Positions 1,309 through 6,933 of a stretch of 24,208 bases of DNA are shown in pieces. Where the stretch lies: IMG/VR virus record IMGVR_UViG_3300025301_000112, positions 1-24,208 of that record; one strand, given 5' to 3'. The position numbers and the translations under genes were made by a program. This stretch comes from a virus. The notes beneath the pieces were generated by a model. That model had not been told where the DNA came from and did not search any database. It saw nothing but the letters and a program-made list of their open reading frames with translations. Position 1 is the first letter of the stretch; each line of letters opens with the position of its first letter.

Positions 1309-1325
1309 GTTAGTGTCGCACTAAC
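1309..1325 (-). repeat. Palindromic repeat 1 (GTTAGTG-TCG-CACTAAC)
   Basis: This is the 17-base element GTTAGTGTCGCACTAAC, with 7-base perfect arms around a 3-base centre. It begins 3 bases after the stop codon of the 44-aa gene and lies just before the ribosome site of the 310-aa gene. It is one of seven copies at 1309-6044. In the direction of transcription it reads GTTAGTGCGACACTAACA. It has no U-run, so it does not look like a terminator. Confidence 0.9.
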
Positions 1326-1328
1326 GTT

Positions 1329-1463
1329 TCAGCCATTCCTTATTTTGTTGAAGGCTTCGTTGATCTCAGCCATATCAAAATCGACGACCCCTTTTTGTTC
1401 GAGGCACCATTTATAATGCGATATAACTCGTTCTATAATCTCTACTGCTTTTTCGTATTCCAT
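1329..1463 (-). CDS. Small hypothetical protein (44 aa) after the SleB gene
   Basis: ATG at 1463 directly follows the TAA of the cell-wall hydrolase gene (1464-1466), with the strong site GGAGGAATAAATG, so the two are translationally coupled. The frame runs 44 codons to TGA at 1329-1331. The product is acidic to neutral and helical, starting MEYEKAVEIIERVISHYKW and ending in a short Asn/Lys/Arg tail. It has no membrane segment and no recognised family. Palindromic repeat 1 follows 3 bases after the stop. Ribosome site, coupling and lack of free space make this a real gene; its role is unknown. Confidence 0.8.
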   Translation of the reverse strand: MEYEKAVEIIERVISHYKWCLEQKGVVDFDMAEINEAFNKIRNG

Positions 1464-1886
1464 TTATTCCTCCAACTTGTAAAAGATGTGTTGCCCAATC
1501 TGGATGGTCATCTGCATTGTGTGCCGCCATGACGGTGACACGTTAGTAGTGTGGTAGAACATCGCACCCTCCGATATGTCGATGGGGAGGGAGGAACTGG
1601 TCTCCGTGACAATGGTGGCGATCCGCAACGCGGTTTGCCACGCCTCATAATCATGCACGTTCTCCGGCTTACCATCACACCAAAAAGAGAATTGACATTT
1701 GTGCCGTACAGGGTGACCGGAGGGGTGGGTTGGCCCCTCCATGATAACTTCACACACGGTGTCGGGGTAACGCTCGTCAACTACTCGATTGAGTATGACT
1801 TGCGCCACCGCCAACTGCCCTGCTATCGGTTCAGATCTAGCCTCAAAGTAGATAGCTAGAGCCAAACAACTTATGGTGGATAGCAC
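1464..1886 (-). CDS. Cell wall hydrolase, SleB/CwlJ family (putative endolysin)
   Basis: This predicted 140-aa protein matches the Hydrolase_2 (SleB/CwlJ) family of peptidoglycan hydrolases. The diagnostic stretch is LALAIYFEARSEPIAGQLAV (residues 8-27), with the family Glu in the YFEAR motif followed by QVILNRV, and later AMFYHTTNVSPSW. In phages such proteins serve as endolysins or virion-associated peptidoglycan-cleaving enzymes. The whole protein is the catalytic domain, with no added wall-binding domain. The first 15 residues are mildly hydrophobic but overlap the catalytic fold, so I do not call a signal peptide. GTG at 1886 overlaps the TAG of the VWA gene by one base (TAGTG), indicating coupled translation, and the 44-aa gene follows without a gap. 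A lysis-type enzyme joined to a MoxR/VWA pair rather than to a holin gene is unusual. Confidence 0.88.
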   Translation of the reverse strand: MLSTISCLALAIYFEARSEPIAGQLAVAQVILNRVVDERYPDTVCEVIMEGPTHPSGHPVRHKCQFSFWCDGKPENVHDYEAWQTALRIATIVTETSSSLPIDISEGAMFYHTTNVSPSWRHTMQMTIQIGQHIFYKLEE

Positions 1887-3097
1887 TACAACTCACTCGA
1901 ACTTACATGGATAACCGTACCTACGTCAGGCTTGGCATCTTCGTTATCGATGACAACCCATAGAACAGGACAGTTCCAATTACCCCAACCGCCGTAGAGA
2001 TCCCCATCTGTTATGATAATGGTAGCTTGCGGTTGTATATTCTTCTCGGTGAGATACGGCGGTATGCACTCAACATCCGTGCCGCCGCCACCACGTGGTT
2101 TGGTAGTTTTTGCAAAATCATCAAGCTGATCTTGCGTGTACTTTTCATCCCCCACTACCTCGGTACCCCAATACAACATACGAACCCAATCGGGTTTGAC
2201 CGTATCGAAACACGCCTTGGCTTCAGTGATTATAACTGATTGCTCACGTTGTCCAATTGACCCAGACATATCACCACCAACAACCACACCTTCCACGCTT
2301 TCCGATATGCCACTCGGCATGAAGATGCCATCCCGTGTGAATATCTCTATGAAACGCCTGTTAGGTCGTCTGTATGTGGAGAAATCATTGCCCGCGCAGG
2401 TAGCGGTAATGAACTCACGCATTACCTCGTGCCAGTCTACTTGCGGCTTCAACAATTCTTGGAACTCACGATCCGTACCCGTGCCTAACTTACCCGCGAT
2501 CAACGCGCCCTGTCGTATGGCCTCGTCAACATCACGATCAAGTTCACGCTTCTCATCATCCGTGAATTCTTTTGCGCCTTTCCAATCATGGTCATCAAGT
2601 CCCTGTGGGCCACCACCGTTGGGAGGCGGGCATTTACCACCACCACCCTTCTTCTCTTTCTTGAGAATGTTGAACACCTGTGCGGTATCCATACCGCGGA
2701 ACCGCTCGTCCAACAAAGCTAGCTTCGGTGCGACAGCAAACCCATCCCTGTTGTCATCTGAAATTTTTATGTTGATGACATAATCCGCGGACTTGTTCGC
2801 CAAGTCTGGGTCTTCCAACCACAAATGAAACCACGTGACGAGATGCTTGTAGAGTTTGTGGTAGTTCTCATGCAGTACCAGATACCGCAGTTCAGGATCA
2901 TTGAGACCGTCCACAAACTCCCTACCGTACATTTCATCACGACCATTGGTGCAGGCAGTCGGTACATCATCTTTAACAAGCCGATCACCGATCATCAATA
3001 TACCAGCCAACGCCACGTATTTTTCTTTAGCCATTATATCGACCACCGCCTTCGATAGACGCTGTTCGACGGTAAGTTCTTTTCCTAATGTTAACAC
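1886..3097 (-). CDS. VWA-domain protein with N-terminal HExxH metallopeptidase-like domain
   Basis: This 403-aa protein has two recognisable parts. The N-terminal half carries HENYHKLYKH (residues 76-85), an HExxH zinc site with further His residues, and downstream ADYVIN (104-109), matching the putative metallopeptidase domain of the DUF2201 family. A Gly/Pro-rich linker lies at about 150-166. The C-terminal half is a VWA-like fold with an intact MIDAS: DMSGS (276-280), GGGGTD (336-341) and ITDGD (362-366). Such proteins typically work with a MoxR-type AAA+ ATPase, and the gene for one lies directly upstream. The start is GTG at 3097, with AGGAGAA nine bases before it; no better ATG lies near. 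SleB overlaps its stop by one base. Partnership with the ATPase is well grounded; the substrate is unknown. Confidence 0.9.
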   Translation of the reverse strand: MLTLGKELTVEQRLSKAVVDIMAKEKYVALAGILMIGDRLVKDDVPTACTNGRDEMYGREFVDGLNDPELRYLVLHENYHKLYKHLVTWFHLWLEDPDLANKSADYVINIKISDDNRDGFAVAPKLALLDERFRGMDTAQVFNILKKEKKGGGGKCPPPNGGGPQGLDDHDWKGAKEFTDDEKRELDRDVDEAIRQGALIAGKLGTGTDREFQELLKPQVDWHEVMREFITATCAGNDFSTYRRPNRRFIEIFTRDGIFMPSGISESVEGVVVGGDMSGSIGQREQSVIITEAKACFDTVKPDWVRMLYWGTEVVGDEKYTQDQLDDFAKTTKPRGGGGTDVECIPPYLTEKNIQPQATIIITDGDLYGGWGNWNCPVLWVVIDNEDAKPDVGTVIHVSSSEL

Positions 3098-3122
3098 TGT
3101 CTTGTTCTCCTACGTTGGTGGA

Positions 3123-3143
3123 AGGTGCAGGACTCCTGCACCT
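3123..3143 (-). promoter_or_regulatory. Perfect 21-base palindrome / hairpin upstream of the VWA gene
   Basis: AGGTGCAGGACTCCTGCACCT is a perfect inverted repeat with 10-base arms around a single base. It lies between palindromic repeat 2 and the ribosome site of the VWA gene. It could fold as a hairpin in the leader RNA or bind a dimeric protein. No U-run follows, so it is not a typical intrinsic terminator. I saw this sequence only once in the window. Confidence 0.7.
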
Positions 3144-3149
3144 CCCGTT

Positions 3150-3166
3150 GTTAGTGTCACACTAAC
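3150..3166 (-). repeat. Palindromic repeat 2 (GTTAGTGT-C-ACACTAAC)
   Basis: This copy, GTTAGTGTCACACTAAC, has perfect 8-base arms. Its edge overlaps the last base of the stop codon (TAG, 3166-3168) of the MoxR gene. On the transcribed strand it contains GTGACACTA, which is identical to the core of the SP6 promoter. It is followed by the 21-base palindrome and the VWA ribosome site. Confidence 0.9.
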
Positions 3167-4269
3167 TATTTCTTGTCCGCTGCGAACATGTAGTTGTTCG
3201 TCATAGCCCACTCGGTGAACTTCTTGTTCGTCATAACGAGTGACTGTTTGCTGTACTTCGGAGCGCGGACGCCGTTGGCGAATAGCCCCTGCGCTTCCTT
3301 GTCGAGACGAACCATGTACTCCATCCAAGGAGTGACCCACTCCTTGTCCAAACTCGCTAACGTGCGGTACACAACCATACACACGGCGGAGGCACTGTCT
3401 GGCACCTTGGCGTTGTGCGGGTCTTTCTTGATACTTTCCAGCGTCGGCAACTGATCTGCCAACTTGACGAAAGCCATCAGGTCCATCGCCCCGCGATCAC
3501 CAATGGTACCCATGAGCAAACACGTTAACGTTTGATCGTCGTAGTGTTCCCTCTGCTTGAGCCAATCACTAGCCGCCTCACCCGAACGTGGGGTGAAGAA
3601 GGCGGTTCTTTGCGCCCGTGGATGGAAGATGTAAGGATTTTCGTCTGGGTCTTTGACATCCTCGAACGAGGCGAACAACTGTGGATTATCCTTGCACCAA
3701 CCGAGCATCGTATGGTCGATCTCATTGTTAACCCCCCATTCAATGAATTCGATGTTATTCGGTTTCCGCATTGGTGTAACGGTGATGCGATTTCGTGCGT
3801 GAGGCGGGAGTAGATCACCCACCCCCTCTGCGCCAAGATTAGTAGTGGCAAACACTAACGACTTCTCATGTAGTGTGTACCCACCGATCTTCCGCTCCAA
3901 CATAAGCCGCAGCATCGCGTTCTTGACGGACGGGTTAGCCTTCCCGTACTCATCGATCATCAGGATGATTGGCTTATTAAGGTGGACCCCCAACTCTTCG
4001 TTGGTGGCATATTCTACATAGTCACCACCTTCGGCATCGTTGAGGGTAGCGAGTTTCGGTATCGTGATGTCACCAAGGTCTTTCGTGGTGCAATCAAAAT
4101 AACAGGGGGTATGGGTTGGCAACTCATCTGCTAAGATGTTAAGGATTGATGACTTACCTGATCCCATGTGCCCTTGAAGTAGGACGGTACGTTTGTGACC
4201 ACCGTTTTTGATAGCCCCAACGGCTTGGGGTATATTTAACGCGTACATTGATTTGGCTGAATTTGCCAT
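3166..4269 (-). CDS. MoxR/CobS-like AAA+ ATPase
   Basis: This 367-aa protein has a single AAA+ module: Walker A GHMGSGKS (33-40), Walker B IILMIDE (101-107), sensor 1 TTN (142-144) and a likely arginine finger in HARNR (157-161). MoxR-family ATPases act as oligomeric remodelling chaperones with VWA-domain partners, and the next gene downstream encodes exactly such a protein. The CobS branch, common in marine phages, is a close alternative label. The C-terminal region (about 200-367) matches nothing I know. ATG at 4269 is preceded by TAGGAGAACGAAATT. Flanking intergenic gaps each hold one palindromic repeat. The ATPase activity and VWA partnership are firm; the phage role (virion maturation, host takeover or replication) is not known. 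Confidence 0.9.
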   Translation of the reverse strand: MANSAKSMYALNIPQAVGAIKNGGHKRTVLLQGHMGSGKSSILNILADELPTHTPCYFDCTTKDLGDITIPKLATLNDAEGGDYVEYATNEELGVHLNKPIILMIDEYGKANPSVKNAMLRLMLERKIGGYTLHEKSLVFATTNLGAEGVGDLLPPHARNRITVTPMRKPNNIEFIEWGVNNEIDHTMLGWCKDNPQLFASFEDVKDPDENPYIFHPRAQRTAFFTPRSGEAASDWLKQREHYDDQTLTCLLMGTIGDRGAMDLMAFVKLADQLPTLESIKKDPHNAKVPDSASAVCMVVYRTLASLDKEWVTPWMEYMVRLDKEAQGLFANGVRAPKYSKQSLVMTNKKFTEWAMTNNYMFAADKK

Positions 4270-4297
4270 AATTTCGTTCTCCTACAAACGAGTTATT

Positions 4298-4314
4298 GTT
4301 AGTGTCGCACTAAC
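4298..4314 (-). repeat. Palindromic repeat 3 (GTTAGTG-TCG-CACTAAC)
   Basis: This copy is identical to repeats 1 and 4 and in the same orientation. It begins 3 bases after the stop of the 307-aa gene, exactly the spacing seen for repeat 1, and precedes the ribosome site of the MoxR gene by about 20 bases. Confidence 0.9.
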
Positions 4315-4317
4315 AGA

Positions 4318-5241
4318 TTAAACATCCAGACTTGGTAGTGATTTGATGATGTCGTCCACGTTTCGTTTTGTTTCGCGGCGCAGATGATCATCGTCGCGTA
4401 ATGCCTCGGGTGTTATACCGTGCATAGTTTCTTCCAGCTTGCGCTTCATCTCCGACATCTGACTGCTGCCCGTGACGTTGAACGTGTCCAACAGGGGGGT
4501 GATTTCAAGCACATTCTCCACAAGACTATCGCGGAATGTTTTCTTGTCCTCCTTGCCCGTGTAGTCCAGACGTTCCGACATCTTGCTGAGTGCCGTGTAC
4601 ACACGCGTCCAGACTTCTTTGTACGAGTTCTCTATACGGTCAGCGTAGAATGTCTGGTAGTGATCCGCCAACTGGGTGTTACCCTGATTTCCGATGTCCA
4701 GACGGAAGTCACCACTCTCGGGCATCGGTATATAGTTGATGCTGAAACTGAATTTACCCGAAAGCTGATCCGCTGTCGGATACTCGGCACGGTTAAACAA
4801 GTCACCGAGCCTTGCTTCAGCCTGTGAGATTTCCCAGTCGTATGCCGTTAGGAACGTGCTGACTTTGTTATGCCAATTCTGTTCATGCTCGGTCATCATC
4901 TTGTGGTAATCGAAATACGCTTTCGTTGGGAGAAGGCGTACCCCCGTGTCGAGCCACGGCATTGTCAGTCTGTAGTGCTCGTTGCGGATGTTGCCCGTGA
5001 GATCATGTACCGCCTCCAACTCGACACAACCCCCAAGCAATTTCTTGTGGACGTTGGCTACACCCGTTTCGGCATTGTTGTCGTCGGTCACCTGCTTGGA
5101 TGCCTTGCGATCTTTCTTCTTTCCAAGCCACTGTGATATGGATAACTCAACCATCATCGCTGACGATGATATCGACGGAACCTCAATCTCGGGTGCCGTA
5201 TTTGTTAGTGTCGCACTAACACTTTCTGGGATTTTTTCCAT
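4318..5241 (-). CDS. Hypothetical protein of the MoxR/VWA operon (307 aa, DUF3150-like?)
   Basis: I choose ATG at 5241, because AAGGA lies nine bases upstream and overlaps the TAA of the 37-aa gene. The longer frame to 5322 runs back through that gene and lacks a ribosome site. The protein is hydrophilic, with a variable Ser/Lys-rich N-terminus (about 1-60) and a mostly helical body containing Glu/Lys-rich segments near the C-terminus, suggestive of coiled coil. It has no membrane segment. Its place directly before a MoxR ATPase and a VWA gene recalls DUF3150-type proteins that accompany such pairs, but that match is from memory of gene order and weak sequence impression. Oddly, palindromic repeat 4 lies inside the reading frame and encodes SVSATLTN near residue 7. 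Confidence 0.82.
   Translation of the reverse strand: MEKIPESVSATLTNTAPEIEVPSISSSAMMVELSISQWLGKKKDRKASKQVTDDNNAETGVANVHKKLLGGCVELEAVHDLTGNIRNEHYRLTMPWLDTGVRLLPTKAYFDYHKMMTEHEQNWHNKVSTFLTAYDWEISQAEARLGDLFNRAEYPTADQLSGKFSFSINYIPMPESGDFRLDIGNQGNTQLADHYQTFYADRIENSYKEVWTRVYTALSKMSERLDYTGKEDKKTFRDSLVENVLEITPLLDTFNVTGSSQMSEMKRKLEETMHGITPEALRDDDHLRRETKRNVDDIIKSLPSLDV
5204..5220 (-). repeat. Palindromic repeat 4, inside a coding frame
   Basis: This exact copy of GTTAGTGTCGCACTAAC lies about 20 bases downstream of the start codon of the 307-aa gene and is translated in frame. It has the same orientation and centre as repeats 1 and 3. Retention of the exact 17 bases in a coding position suggests DNA-level or RNA-level selection, or recent insertion. 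Confidence 0.88.
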
Positions 5242-5252
5242 CTCGGGTTTCC

Positions 5253-5366
5253 TTATTTGATTGTGGGTACGATGAGTTCTGCTAGTACCTCGCCGGTTTC
5301 GGCGTTGGTGTACACAACCCATGTGTTGTCGTGTCTTGTTTCCGTGCGTCTATTTATCTTCAACAT
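5253..5366 (-). CDS. Small hypothetical protein (37 aa), first gene of the operon
   Basis: ATG at 5366 follows GAGAGAACAATAC, the same style of ribosome site used in this operon. The frame runs 37 codons to TAA at 5253-5255, and that stop overlaps the AAGGA site of the 307-aa gene. The product starts MLKINRRTETRHDNTWVVYT, is basic at the N-terminus and ends in a hydrophobic/acidic stretch (ETGEVLAELIVPTIK). This looks like a small single-domain beta protein, but I do not recognise it. Palindromic repeat 5 lies about 20 bases upstream of the start, so this is probably the first gene of the leftward transcript. Confidence 0.72.
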   Translation of the reverse strand: MLKINRRTETRHDNTWVVYTNAETGEVLAELIVPTIK

Positions 5367-5384
5367 GTATTGTTCTCTCTTTCT

Positions 5385-5401
5385 GTTAGTGTGACACTAA
5401 C
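5385..5401 (-). repeat. Palindromic repeat 5 (GTTAGTGT-G-ACACTAAC)
   Basis: This variant has perfect 8-base arms and a central G on the + strand. It lies just upstream of the first gene of the leftward operon, with no gene before it, which is the position expected of a promoter or operator. The transcribed-strand continuation CTAACAGAAAGAG resembles the initial region of an SP6-type promoter (CTATAGAAG). Confidence 0.88.
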
Positions 5402-5520
5402 GTTTTGGTAATTTTTTTAACTCCAAAAAAACATACTATTTCTGATTATCACTAGTATACCACATCTATCAGATGAGATCAAATGTTACAGGAACGTGTT
5501 TATACGTGGCAGAACGTGTA

Positions 5521-5560
5521 TTGTTCTGTATTGTTCTGTATTGTTCTGTAATGTTCTGTA
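5521..5560 (+). repeat. Tandem 10-base iterons TTGTTCTGTA
   Basis: Three exact consecutive copies of TTGTTCTGTA (5521-5550) are followed by the variant ATGTTCTGTA (5551-5560). The flanking AGAACGTGTA is a diverged copy. The 10-base period places the boxes on one face of the helix, as for a cooperatively bound initiator or repressor. Confidence 0.9.
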
Positions 5561-5816
5561 CGTAGGGTCGGTAACGCGCTGAAAAACCTAGAATGTTCTA
5601 ATGTTCGCTTTTTCGGGAAATTGGAGAGGGAGATTTTGGATTTACTTTTTGCTTCTGAAATTAATCCGCGGAAGGGAAGGTCTTAAATGTTTCTTTATAC
5701 TTTCTCTAAAAAAGAACATTATCATTATTATTATATATACACATGAAACACAATAAGTTGATAGGCATTTCTTCTCACAGTCTCACATGCGTTACCACGC
5801 ATTGCTACAAAAACAT

Positions 5817-5872
5817 AATGTTCTCGGGGTACCGAACATTGTACGAACATTACGAACATTAGAAAGAACATT
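5817..5872. repeat. Cluster of GAACATT boxes
   Basis: AATGTTC (5817-5823) faces GAACATT (5834-5840) as an inverted pair, then GAACATT recurs at 5845-5851, 5854-5860 and 5866-5872, spaced 9-12 bases. Further boxes lie at 5714-5720 (same strand) and at 5550-5556, 5592-5598 and 5600-5606 (opposite strand). The ATGTTC core is shared with the last tandem iteron, so one protein may bind both sets. Confidence 0.85.
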
Positions 5873-5938
5873 AGTCGCTATAGGATACACCTTGGTTGAA
5901 GGTTTTATTCTTACTGAGTGCGGATCCACGACGCGGAT

Positions 5939-5955
5939 GTTAGTGTCACACTAAC
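5939..5955 (-). repeat. Palindromic repeat 6
   Basis: This is GTTAGTGTCACACTAAC, identical to repeat 2, lying in the gene-free region more than 570 bases from the nearest leftward start codon. Its transcribed strand contains GTGACACTA. Confidence 0.88.
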
Positions 5956-5975
5956 AAGTTATGGTGTGTCAATGG

Positions 5976-6024
5976 CTCGCCGCTTCTCCGAGACTCGCCG
6001 CGCTCGGAAGAACTGGTTTCAAAA
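5976..6024 (+). repeat. CTCGCCGCG...GAACTGGTTTCAAA repeat, copy A
   Basis: CTCGCCGC at 5976-5983 and CTCGCCGCG at 5994-6002 are followed by GAACTGGTTTCAAAA at 6010-6024. Related copies lie at 6089-6132, 7127-7157 and 7169-7212, with an isolated CTCGCCGCGCC at 7097-7107. This copy runs straight into palindromic repeat 7. Function unknown. Confidence 0.75.
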
Positions 6025-6025
6025 T

Positions 6026-6044
6026 GTTAGTGACACGCACTAAC
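6026..6044 (-). repeat. Palindromic repeat 7, variant with wider centre
   Basis: GTTAGTG-ACACG-CACTAAC keeps both 7-base arms but has a 5-base centre instead of 3, making it 19 bases. Conservation of the arms with a changed centre argues that the half-sites matter. It is the rightmost copy; I saw none beyond this point. Confidence 0.85.
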
Positions 6045-6088
6045 CTAGAACCCCACGGTGACAGCGGCGGAAAAAAATAGGAAGTTGG

Positions 6089-6132
6089 CGTAAATCTTCG
6101 CTCACCGCGGCCTCGAGAACTGGTTTCAAAGG
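6089..6132 (+). repeat. 44-base repeat, copy B (next to terminator)
   Basis: This block aligns without gaps to 7169-7212 (consensus begins CGYARATYTYCRCTCRCCGC and ends GAACTGGTWTCAAAGG). In both places it ends right beside a UUCG-loop hairpin that terminates leftward transcription, so repeat and terminator appear to be one duplicated unit. Confidence 0.78.
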
Positions 6133-6135
6133 CAC

Positions 6136-6168
6136 AAAAAAAAGGAGACAGAGCCGAAGCCCTGCCTC
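6136..6168 (-). terminator. Intrinsic terminator with UUCG loop and U8
   Basis: Read leftwards, GAGGCAGGGC-TTCG-GCTCTGTCTC forms a 10-base-pair stem with two G-U pairs, then CTTTTTTTT. On the opposite strand the two wobbles become A-C mismatches, so it is built for leftward transcripts. It starts just after the stop codon of the 58-aa gene and shields the gene-free region. Confidence 0.93.
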
Positions 6169-6171
6169 TTG

Positions 6172-6348
6172 TTAGAATTCGTAGCCACGCCCGTAGGGAT
6201 TTGCTATCGGGTGGTCTTTGGATACTGGGGTCGTTGGGTAGTATGTGGTTTCTGCTATAAGATATTTTATAAACTGATCAATTTCGGGTGCTTCATCAAA
6301 ACTTGGATCTATTAGACGGATAGGTATGATGTTTTTCCAGTTAAGCAT
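6172..6348 (-). CDS. Small hypothetical protein (58 aa)
   Basis: I choose ATG at 6348, because AAAGGAAAAACA precedes it. An in-frame upstream start would run into the terminator hairpin of the previous gene. The product starts MLNWKNIIPIRLIDPSFDEA and ends in a Pro/Tyr-rich stretch (TTYYPTTPVSKDHPIANPYG). It is soluble and not recognised. It lies between two intrinsic terminators (6362-6398 and 6136-6168), so it is either read through from the 174-aa gene or has its own weak promoter. Terminator framing and ribosome site support it as a real gene. Confidence 0.75.
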   Translation of the reverse strand: MLNWKNIIPIRLIDPSFDEAPEIDQFIKYLIAETTYYPTTPVSKDHPIANPYGRGYEF

Positions 6349-6361
6349 TGTTTTTCCTTTT

Positions 6362-6398
6362 AAAAAAAGTGGGGGGAGAAACTGCAGTCTCTCCCCCC
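6362..6398 (-). terminator. Strong intrinsic terminator after the 174-aa gene
   Basis: Read leftwards, GGGGGGAGA and TCTCCCCCC form a 9-base-pair stem, extended by the self-complementary ACTGCAGT between them, followed by AC and seven T (6362-6368). It lies 10 bases after the TAG of the 174-aa gene and partly overlaps the leader of the 58-aa gene. Confidence 0.93.
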
Positions 6399-6408
6399 GA
6401 GTTAACAA

Positions 6409-6933
6409 CTAGCGCTTGTTGACTACAGTGGCCAGCTCTTCTAATTTTTCGAGAGCTATGACCAAGTCGAATTCTGCTGACTCAGCAGCCTCCAACCGTT
6501 TCTTGAGAGCAACACAAGTCTCCGAAGCGAAAGTCTCTATGGACTTAACATTCCGGGGATTTGTTATCCCAGCCGCAATATCTTCACGACGTTGGAGTTG
6601 TGTTCCAAAATCGTTTCGGCGTGCGCCGATTTGCATCTGTAAGTAGCGCTTTGTAACCTTCTGAGCCTCTGACAGAGACTTAGTTGGCTTGTCCAGAGTT
6701 TTACGGTTTGTCTCCGTAAATCCCAGGACAATAGCTGCAGTCACAGCATCAAAACGCTCTTTGTGCTCCGCGTATCCTTCGCTGCCCTTTTTAGGAGCTT
6801 TGCAGAAACGCGCCTCGAAACCACCGCTGTATAGAACGTCAACGGCTGTAGTCGTTGCAGTATCAGACGTACGACGTTTCGACACTGCATTAGAAATGGC
6901 TCGCACCATTTCTGTCGGCATTACATAAGACAT
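6409..6933 (-). CDS. Hypothetical phage protein (174 aa)
   Basis: ATG at 6933 is preceded by AAAGGCTAAGACATC, a moderate ribosome site. The protein is soluble and predicted mostly helical, with many Ala, Thr, Glu, Lys and Arg residues. The middle carries SLSEAQKVTKRYLQMQIGAR and the C-terminal 40 residues look like an amphipathic Leu/Ala/Glu helix. I recognise no domain. A promoter-like 55-base repeat lies about 100 bases upstream (7031-7085) and a strong terminator follows, so this appears to be a monocistronic or two-gene unit that may be highly expressed. Composition would fit a nucleoid- or ssDNA-binding protein, but nothing specific supports that. Confidence 0.83.
   Translation of the reverse strand: MSYVMPTEMVRAISNAVSKRRTSDTATTTAVDVLYSGGFEARFCKAPKKGSEGYAEHKERFDAVTAAIVLGFTETNRKTLDKPTKSLSEAQKVTKRYLQMQIGARRNDFGTQLQRREDIAAGITNPRNVKSIETFASETCVALKKRLEAAESAEFDLVIALEKLEELATVVNKR

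Follow-up and report, generated by a model that had tools for sequence, protein, structure and literature searches.

What might a phage do with an AAA+ ATPase of the MoxR type, a von Willebrand factor A (VWA) protein that also carries a putative zinc-peptidase site, and a third protein of unfamiliar fold, all encoded side by side? The question is raised by the IMG/VR virus record IMGVR_UViG_3300025301_000112, whose 24,208 nucleotides (24.2 kb) were analysed in full and are called the window below. The three genes lie on its minus strand in the order DUF3150-like protein, ATPase, VWA protein, and all are intact open reading frames (ORFs):

4318-5241, minus strand: 307-amino-acid (aa) DUF3150-like protein, putative third subunit, whose ATG at 5241 stands 3' of AGGAAA
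3166-4269, minus strand: AAA+ ATPase, MoxR type, 367 aa, PHROG_1297
1886-3097, minus strand: VWA protein with DUF2201_N (putative metallopeptidase) and DUF2201 domains, 403 aa, GTG start, PHROG_1314

A longer reading of the first ORF, giving 334 aa from position 5322, is possible. We favour, at about even confidence, the reading that the three products form one ATP-driven protein-remodelling machine, which would act inside the cell, early, and on a host or replication-associated target, and would not serve virion assembly only. In other words, the trio is probably a conserved machine inside the host cell and not solely a virus-assembly tool.

The linkage of the three genes is strict. Searches found 351 viral relatives of the ATPase and at least 587 of the DUF3150-like protein, and linkage was counted over loci fetched by DUF3150-like queries with at least 3.5 kb of downstream sequence. 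All 53 of the 53 viral loci carry the DUF3150-like, ATPase and VWA genes in one order and on one strand; the two gaps between the genes have medians of 53 and 47 bp. In the set fetched by ATPase queries, the few absent partners were located at contig ends. The three-gene remodelling module announced by the preliminary description is thus upheld by strict co-occurrence and order, and its coordinates, strand, ATPase motifs, metal ion-dependent adhesion site (MIDAS) and HENYH motif are all intact. The ratios of non-synonymous to synonymous substitution (dN/dS) against the relative L004 are 0.11 for the VWA protein, 0.04 for the ATPase and 0.12 for the 307-aa protein; therefore, all three genes are under purifying selection. 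Outside this phage group, Synechococcus phage MinM2 has all three genes with small genes interspersed. Five phages, N4, Presley, PA5oct, QDWS595 and CRP-7, encode the ATPase and the VWA protein, but no DUF3150 was detected with either profile anywhere in their records.

To place the module "in a phage" proved too narrow, since plasmids also carry it. A relative of the DUF3150-like protein occurs in 44 plasmid records, 16 of them typed as conjugative. The plasmid order is ATPase, DUF3150-like protein, VWA protein in Burkholderia, Cupriavidus, Robbsia, Variovorax and Rhodovastum, and a Simplicispira plasmid has the DUF3150-like and VWA genes with the ATPase 3.6 kb upstream. Whole genomes, surveyed with a query from Rhodovastum and by profile, seldom hold the module: the profile searches gave 3 of 399 and 1 of 398, entry genomes included. 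Among the plasmids, three from Burkholderiales (L089, L182 and L183) have a PRTRC cassette (ThiF-related) several genes from the trio, and in L089 and L183 type IV secretion genes adjoin it. In two Manganitrophus plasmids, DUF3150 is accompanied by another AAA ATPase as well as by DUF1257 and DUF2997, and no VWA match was obtained.

The surroundings of the trio also point away from the structural genes. In the window, the terminase, portal and major head protein genes are on the plus strand in the right part, and the trio occupies the other arm. In the relative L030, a Hydrolase_2 gene and genes of unknown function follow the trio, and then a DNA polymerase A gene about 4-5 kb downstream on the same strand; the relative L013 has an ORF of similar size. 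Elsewhere, the neighbours include a DNA helicase and a polymerase in Presley, a dCTP deaminase in N4 and a nearby primase in MinM2. We rank an early intracellular role above virion assembly for two reasons: the block also occurs on plasmids, and in the phages it lies upstream of a gene for a family A DNA polymerase.

The ATPase contains the following elements:

4150-4173, minus strand: Walker A, GHMGSGKS, residues 33-40, with the Lys invariant in 121 of 121 distinct relatives
3949-3969, minus strand: Walker B, IILMIDE, residues 101-107, assigned from the sequence and its conservation in relatives
3838-3855, minus strand: sensor 1, VFATTN (Asn144), with the Asn invariant in 121 of 121 distinct relatives
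3787-3795, minus strand: candidate arginine finger, RNR (Arg159, Arg161), with Arg161 in 120 of 121 relatives and a putative role

Across the 121 distinct ATPases, the Walker and sensor residues vary little or not at all, and the motifs of an AAA+ ATPase are in place. The protein matches PHROG_1297 (E 1.4e-43) and scores above the cut-off for Pfam AAA, but it misses that of AAA_3 (MoxR), with 14.5 bits against 27. Its relatives carry MoxR annotation, and we file it as MoxR type because of this annotation and its VWA partner, not by membership of Pfam AAA_3. A match to the CobS equivalog TIGR01650 was absent at E ≤ 0.01, which leaves the suggested CobS/CobT likeness unconfirmed for the window proteins; it holds for the ATPase of the distant plasmid pCAR1.

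The VWA protein fits the family proposed for it, scoring 71.1 bits with PF13203 (DUF2201_N; cut-off 23.2) and 39.9 bits with PF09967 (DUF2201; cut-off 26.4). Two of its sites are central to the argument:

2258-2272, minus strand: MIDAS, DMSGS, residues 276-280, with D, S and S invariant
2843-2872, minus strand: HENYHKLYKH, that is HExxHxxxxH (H76, E77, H80, H85), residues 76-85

In a 41-sequence alignment of VWA proteins, the MIDAS residues D276, S278, S280, T340 and D364 are all invariant. PDB searches with single sequences gave no useful match. A Foldseek search with the model of the whole VWA protein found the midasin MIDAS (E 8e-5) and the CLCA1 VWA domain among its nearest solved matches. 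The label HNH endonuclease, attached to PHROG_1314 and to many GenBank phage records, was rejected, as no HNH family matched the window copy in Pfam at E ≤ 1. An ORF of VBP47 (5431-6732) was likewise discarded as a VWA protein; it fails to align at the conserved sites, and that stretch gave no VWA match. Alignment A2 includes this ORF, which weakens its counts, and alignments A3 and A5 were relied on.

Does the N-terminal domain of this protein cut? Of 104 distinct relatives, 97 have an unbroken HExxHxxxxH in their raw sequences. The other seven comprise five phage copies with HEDEGH, one with HEVYD and a Variovorax plasmid copy lacking H and E. The HEDEGH copies (L130, L149, L153, L156 and L169) form a natural phage subgroup in which the motif is one residue longer and H, E and both later H are retained. 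Among very distant members, compared in hand-picked alignments, H76, E77, H80, H85 and D105 are invariant. The AlphaFold model (mean predicted local distance difference test score, pLDDT, of 80, and near 97 for residues 61-80) places three short strands between residues 39 and 58 and then the motif in a helix at 67-82, so that an HExxH helix follows a sheet; a further helix at 97-115 carries the conserved N101, D105 and N109. The third metal ligand may be H85 or D105, both invariant, the latter in the predicted helix 97-115. A fold in which these residues could not bind metal had been named beforehand as one of two results that would count against the idea, and the model, with HExxH in a confidently predicted helix, is favourable so far; the other, a lack of co-occurrence in relatives, is contradicted by the linkage described above.

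A profile of the N-terminal 140 residues of the family was compared with solved structures and gave weak matches to MJ1213/selecase (E 0.0016), an M48 peptidase (0.0029), BepA (0.0034) and projannalysin (0.011), in alignments that span 45-60 residues. Individual family members reach Pfam M48 and SprT-like. The likeness to the minigluzincins (MJ1213/selecase, projannalysin) and to M48 (BepA) consists of the HExxH helix and the stretch before it, and, compared with them, the third ligand of the phage domain is at candidate level. These comparisons are consistent with a minigluzincin-like or M48-like zinc site in the predicted N-terminal domain. The putative zinc-peptidase site of the preliminary description has thus gained support from residue conservation, from the Pfam family name "putative metallopeptidase domain" and from the weak gluzincin profile matches.

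The third protein had been described as helical. Its AlphaFold model (pLDDT 86.7) combines an N-terminal part of mixed structure with two long helices, and the predicted fold is therefore alpha/beta with long helices, not purely helical. A PDB fold search with this model returned nothing similar (best E 0.36), and the best match in BFVD is a protein annotated as DUF3150 (E 2.8e-19, template modelling score 0.79). With PF11348 (DUF3150), 17 of 25 family members match at E ≤ 0.01; in a scan of ten members, three fell under the cut-off and one, from a Manganitrophus plasmid, was above it. The window copy itself has no PF11348 match, and a PF11348 search of two genomes that carry the gene also gave none, from which we conclude that this family model misses the phage-like branch. 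The suggested DUF3150 assignment probably holds at the level of a remote family but not as a direct match of the window copy, and the 307-aa protein appears, from profiles and predicted structure, to be a remote DUF3150 relative, which we name DUF3150-like.

Parts of this arrangement have been seen before. It is already known that group 2.2 jumbo phages carry a MoxR ATPase adjoining a vWA protein whose N-terminal part is a metallopeptidase domain, a pair for which virion assembly was proposed (Iyer et al. 2021, PMC7824862). A third protein is unmentioned in the available text of that paper, whereas the pair described here is linked to a DUF3150-like subunit, also occurs on plasmids and lies on the replication side. 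Also known is the pCAR1-type module: the MoxR and VWA genes of plasmid pCAR1 were noted in 2009, and ORF100-103 are conserved in R478, Rts1, SXT and R391 (PMC2642839). In pCAR1, ORF101-103 encode an AAA+ ATPase, DUF3150 and a VWA protein consecutively, and the VWA protein (604 aa, annotated NorD) carries HECSH upstream of DKSGS. This DUF3150 scores 309 bits with PF11348. The pCAR1 module is nevertheless very distant from that of the window; our A1 profile misses it, and the profile comparison with the alignments is weak.

The likeness to N4 gp24/gp25 that had been proposed is borne out for two of the three genes. N4 and other Schitoviridae have a homologous ATPase (PHROG_1297) and an adjacent DUF2201 VWA protein (PHROG_1314); the window VWA protein aligns with N4 gp25, in which HExxHxxxxH is intact as HELWHVGLLH. 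The DUF3150-like gene is where the likeness ends, as none was detected in the N4, Presley and QDWS595 records. RavA-ViaA of Escherichia coli resembles the trio in joining a MoxR ATPase to a VWA co-chaperone, but it is a chromosomal two-component pair. The MoxR-vWA ternary conflict systems (with VMAP, iSTAND and FtsH; PMC7159879) share a MoxR-vWA core and a dedicated third component. As far as the available text of that source goes, their third component is differently named, and we detected no relationship to it; the trio, in contrast, has no effector domains that we could see and resides on phages and plasmids.

The genes, their motifs and conservation, the strict linkage, the spread over phages and plasmids and the proximity to replication genes are direct observations, and a mechanism may be built upon them. 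The ATPase would assemble into a ring, as is usual in its family. In MoxR-vWA pairs, the vWA protein is thought to capture a substrate peptide and ATP hydrolysis to reshape the substrate, according to the available text of PMC7159879. By analogy, the MIDAS of the DUF2201 protein's VWA domain would capture the substrate peptide, and ATP hydrolysis would pull or reshape the captured protein. This protein could then be presented to the M48/minigluzincin-like N-terminal domain of the same chain and be cut in most members. The DUF3150-like protein would be a dedicated third subunit, most likely a substrate adaptor or a regulator, tied to the ATPase-VWA pair in many, though not all, mobile elements. 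The machine may act early in the cell on a host or replication-associated protein complex.

Several results weigh against this mechanism. Location near replication genes is no proof of early expression. Because no DUF3150 was detected in N4-like phages, PA5oct and CRP-7, the third subunit is not universal. Since HExxH is disturbed in some relatives, cleavage is not essential in every member. Finally, the gluzincin match is weak, and no peptidase appears in the best 50 Foldseek matches of the whole VWA-protein model, which are VWA-containing proteins. One alternative is that HExxH is vestigial and that the trio amounts to a usual chaperone pair joined by a third subunit. The seven disturbed copies would favour it; the 97 intact ones, together with the five residues invariant in very distant members, make it unlikely in our estimation. 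A role in metal or cofactor insertion, of the chelatase, CoxDE or NorQD type, would instead have the ATPase-VWA pair activate a metalloenzyme, with HExxH as a metal carrier. The pCAR1 ATPase does match CobS (TIGR01650 at 2.8e-36, far below the curated cut-off) beside its NorD-annotated partner, and the window ATPase has a marginal BchI match. In the phages and plasmids inspected, however, the trio has no evident client metalloenzyme as a neighbour, the window ATPase lacks the CobS match, and its partner's N-domain is peptidase-like, all of which renders metal insertion the least probable of the explanations considered.

A virion-assembly chaperone with a processing peptidase, which would fold or assemble structural proteins and trim them, is the role put forward for the jumbo-phage pair by analogy with the tail chaperone of Acidianus two-tailed virus (in the available text of PMC7824862), and the PA5oct ATPase record carries an electrospray ionization tandem mass spectrometry (ESI-MS/MS) note. 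Yet plasmids, which have no virion, carry the trio too, and in the window it is opposite in strand to the terminase, portal and capsid genes, with relatives placing it on the DNA polymerase side; we consider virion assembly rather unlikely. The remaining alternative, a counter-defence device that dismantles a defence complex of the host or of another mobile element, is a special case of the intracellular role. It would suit a module that is carried by phages and conjugative plasmids and is rare in whole genomes, and MoxR-vWA ternary systems serve in biological conflict, as the accessible part of PMC7159879 has it. The PADLOC defence-system models gave only marginal P-loop matches to the trio, none of them convincing, and PADLOC covers defence, not counter-defence. 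The trio is, moreover, conserved across the sampled phage group and not patchy like most anti-defence genes, and this special case too seems fairly improbable. The intracellular remodelling machine is the reading favoured here.

The expression of the module may be controlled through a 17-bp palindrome, GTTAGTG-N3-CACTAAC. The window holds six copies, all of them within 1309-5955, which mark gene boundaries or fall inside the beginning of the DUF3150-like gene:

1309-1325: copy 1, 19 nt upstream of a 310-aa gene
3150-3166: copy 2, between the ATPase and VWA genes
4298-4314: copy 3, between the DUF3150-like and ATPase genes
5204-5220: copy 4, within the first codons of the DUF3150-like gene
5385-5401: copy 5, upstream of a 37-aa leader ORF
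5939-5955: copy 6, in the long upstream intergenic region

Allowing at most 3 mismatches, the search gave 14 matches on both strands against 0.84 expected. A repeated palindrome with at least three copies was found in 99 of 104 distinct site patterns of relatives (L002-L170). Counted by pattern, it lies upstream of the DUF3150-like gene in 83, in the DUF3150-like/ATPase gap in 70, over the opening codons of the DUF3150-like gene in 51 and in the ATPase/VWA gap in 50, with only nine in gene interiors. Within a phage the palindrome is uniform, and between phages it varies (GTTAGTC, TTAGGGA, GTAGTGA, TTATCCA, TATACAT, CCTTACA and others); for this reason, the phage-specific sequences suggest a co-evolving regulator. 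The arms are perfect in 594 of 641 sites, and the mismatches (eight G-T against two A-C) are too few to distinguish a DNA operator from an RNA hairpin.

In its fullest form, the proposal would read as follows. The trio would be an unnamed three-part, ATP-powered disassembly protease of phages and conjugative plasmids, whose DUF3150 subunit, of a new fold, selects the target; it would dismantle a host complex in early infection or plasmid establishment, and a repressor or RNA-binding protein of the phage's own would act at the boundary palindromes. We put this forward as tentative and, taken as a whole, rather unlikely.

Some neighbouring features may be mentioned. The 37-aa leader ORF (MLKINRRTETRHDNTWVVYTNAETGEVLAELIVPTIK) at 5253-5366 is present solely in the closest relatives and is for that reason regarded as outside the conserved module. 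The long intergenic region at 5322-6172 is a candidate replication origin or control region, since it contains iteron-like repeats: TGTATTGTTC is present in 4.4 copies at 5517-5560, and further repeats, at 5833-5873, centre on GAACATTA. At the other end of the trio, a cell wall hydrolase gene (Hydrolase_2, PHROG_938 endolysin) at 1464-1886 overlaps the VWA stop codon by one base, and the same gene also follows the trio in the relative L013. A 132-aa protein at 8334-8732 matches the archaeal Holliday junction resolvase Hjc, just under the cut-off.

In the literature searched, we found no mention of DUF3150, an absence that is no proof of novelty, and no account that unites the members of the trio in phages and plasmids alike or that describes the palindromes. 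The N4 sequence already showed the ATPase-VWA pair, for which we found no demonstrated role. The linkage of a third protein, the carriage on plasmids and the peptidase-like site, kept across very distant elements, turn attention away from phage assembly and towards an intracellular function that can be tested. Two laboratory systems are at hand for this: plasmid pCAR1 in its host Pseudomonas putida, and E. coli K-12 infected by phage N4. The phage-specific palindromes, in turn, offer a means of finding out when the module is turned on.

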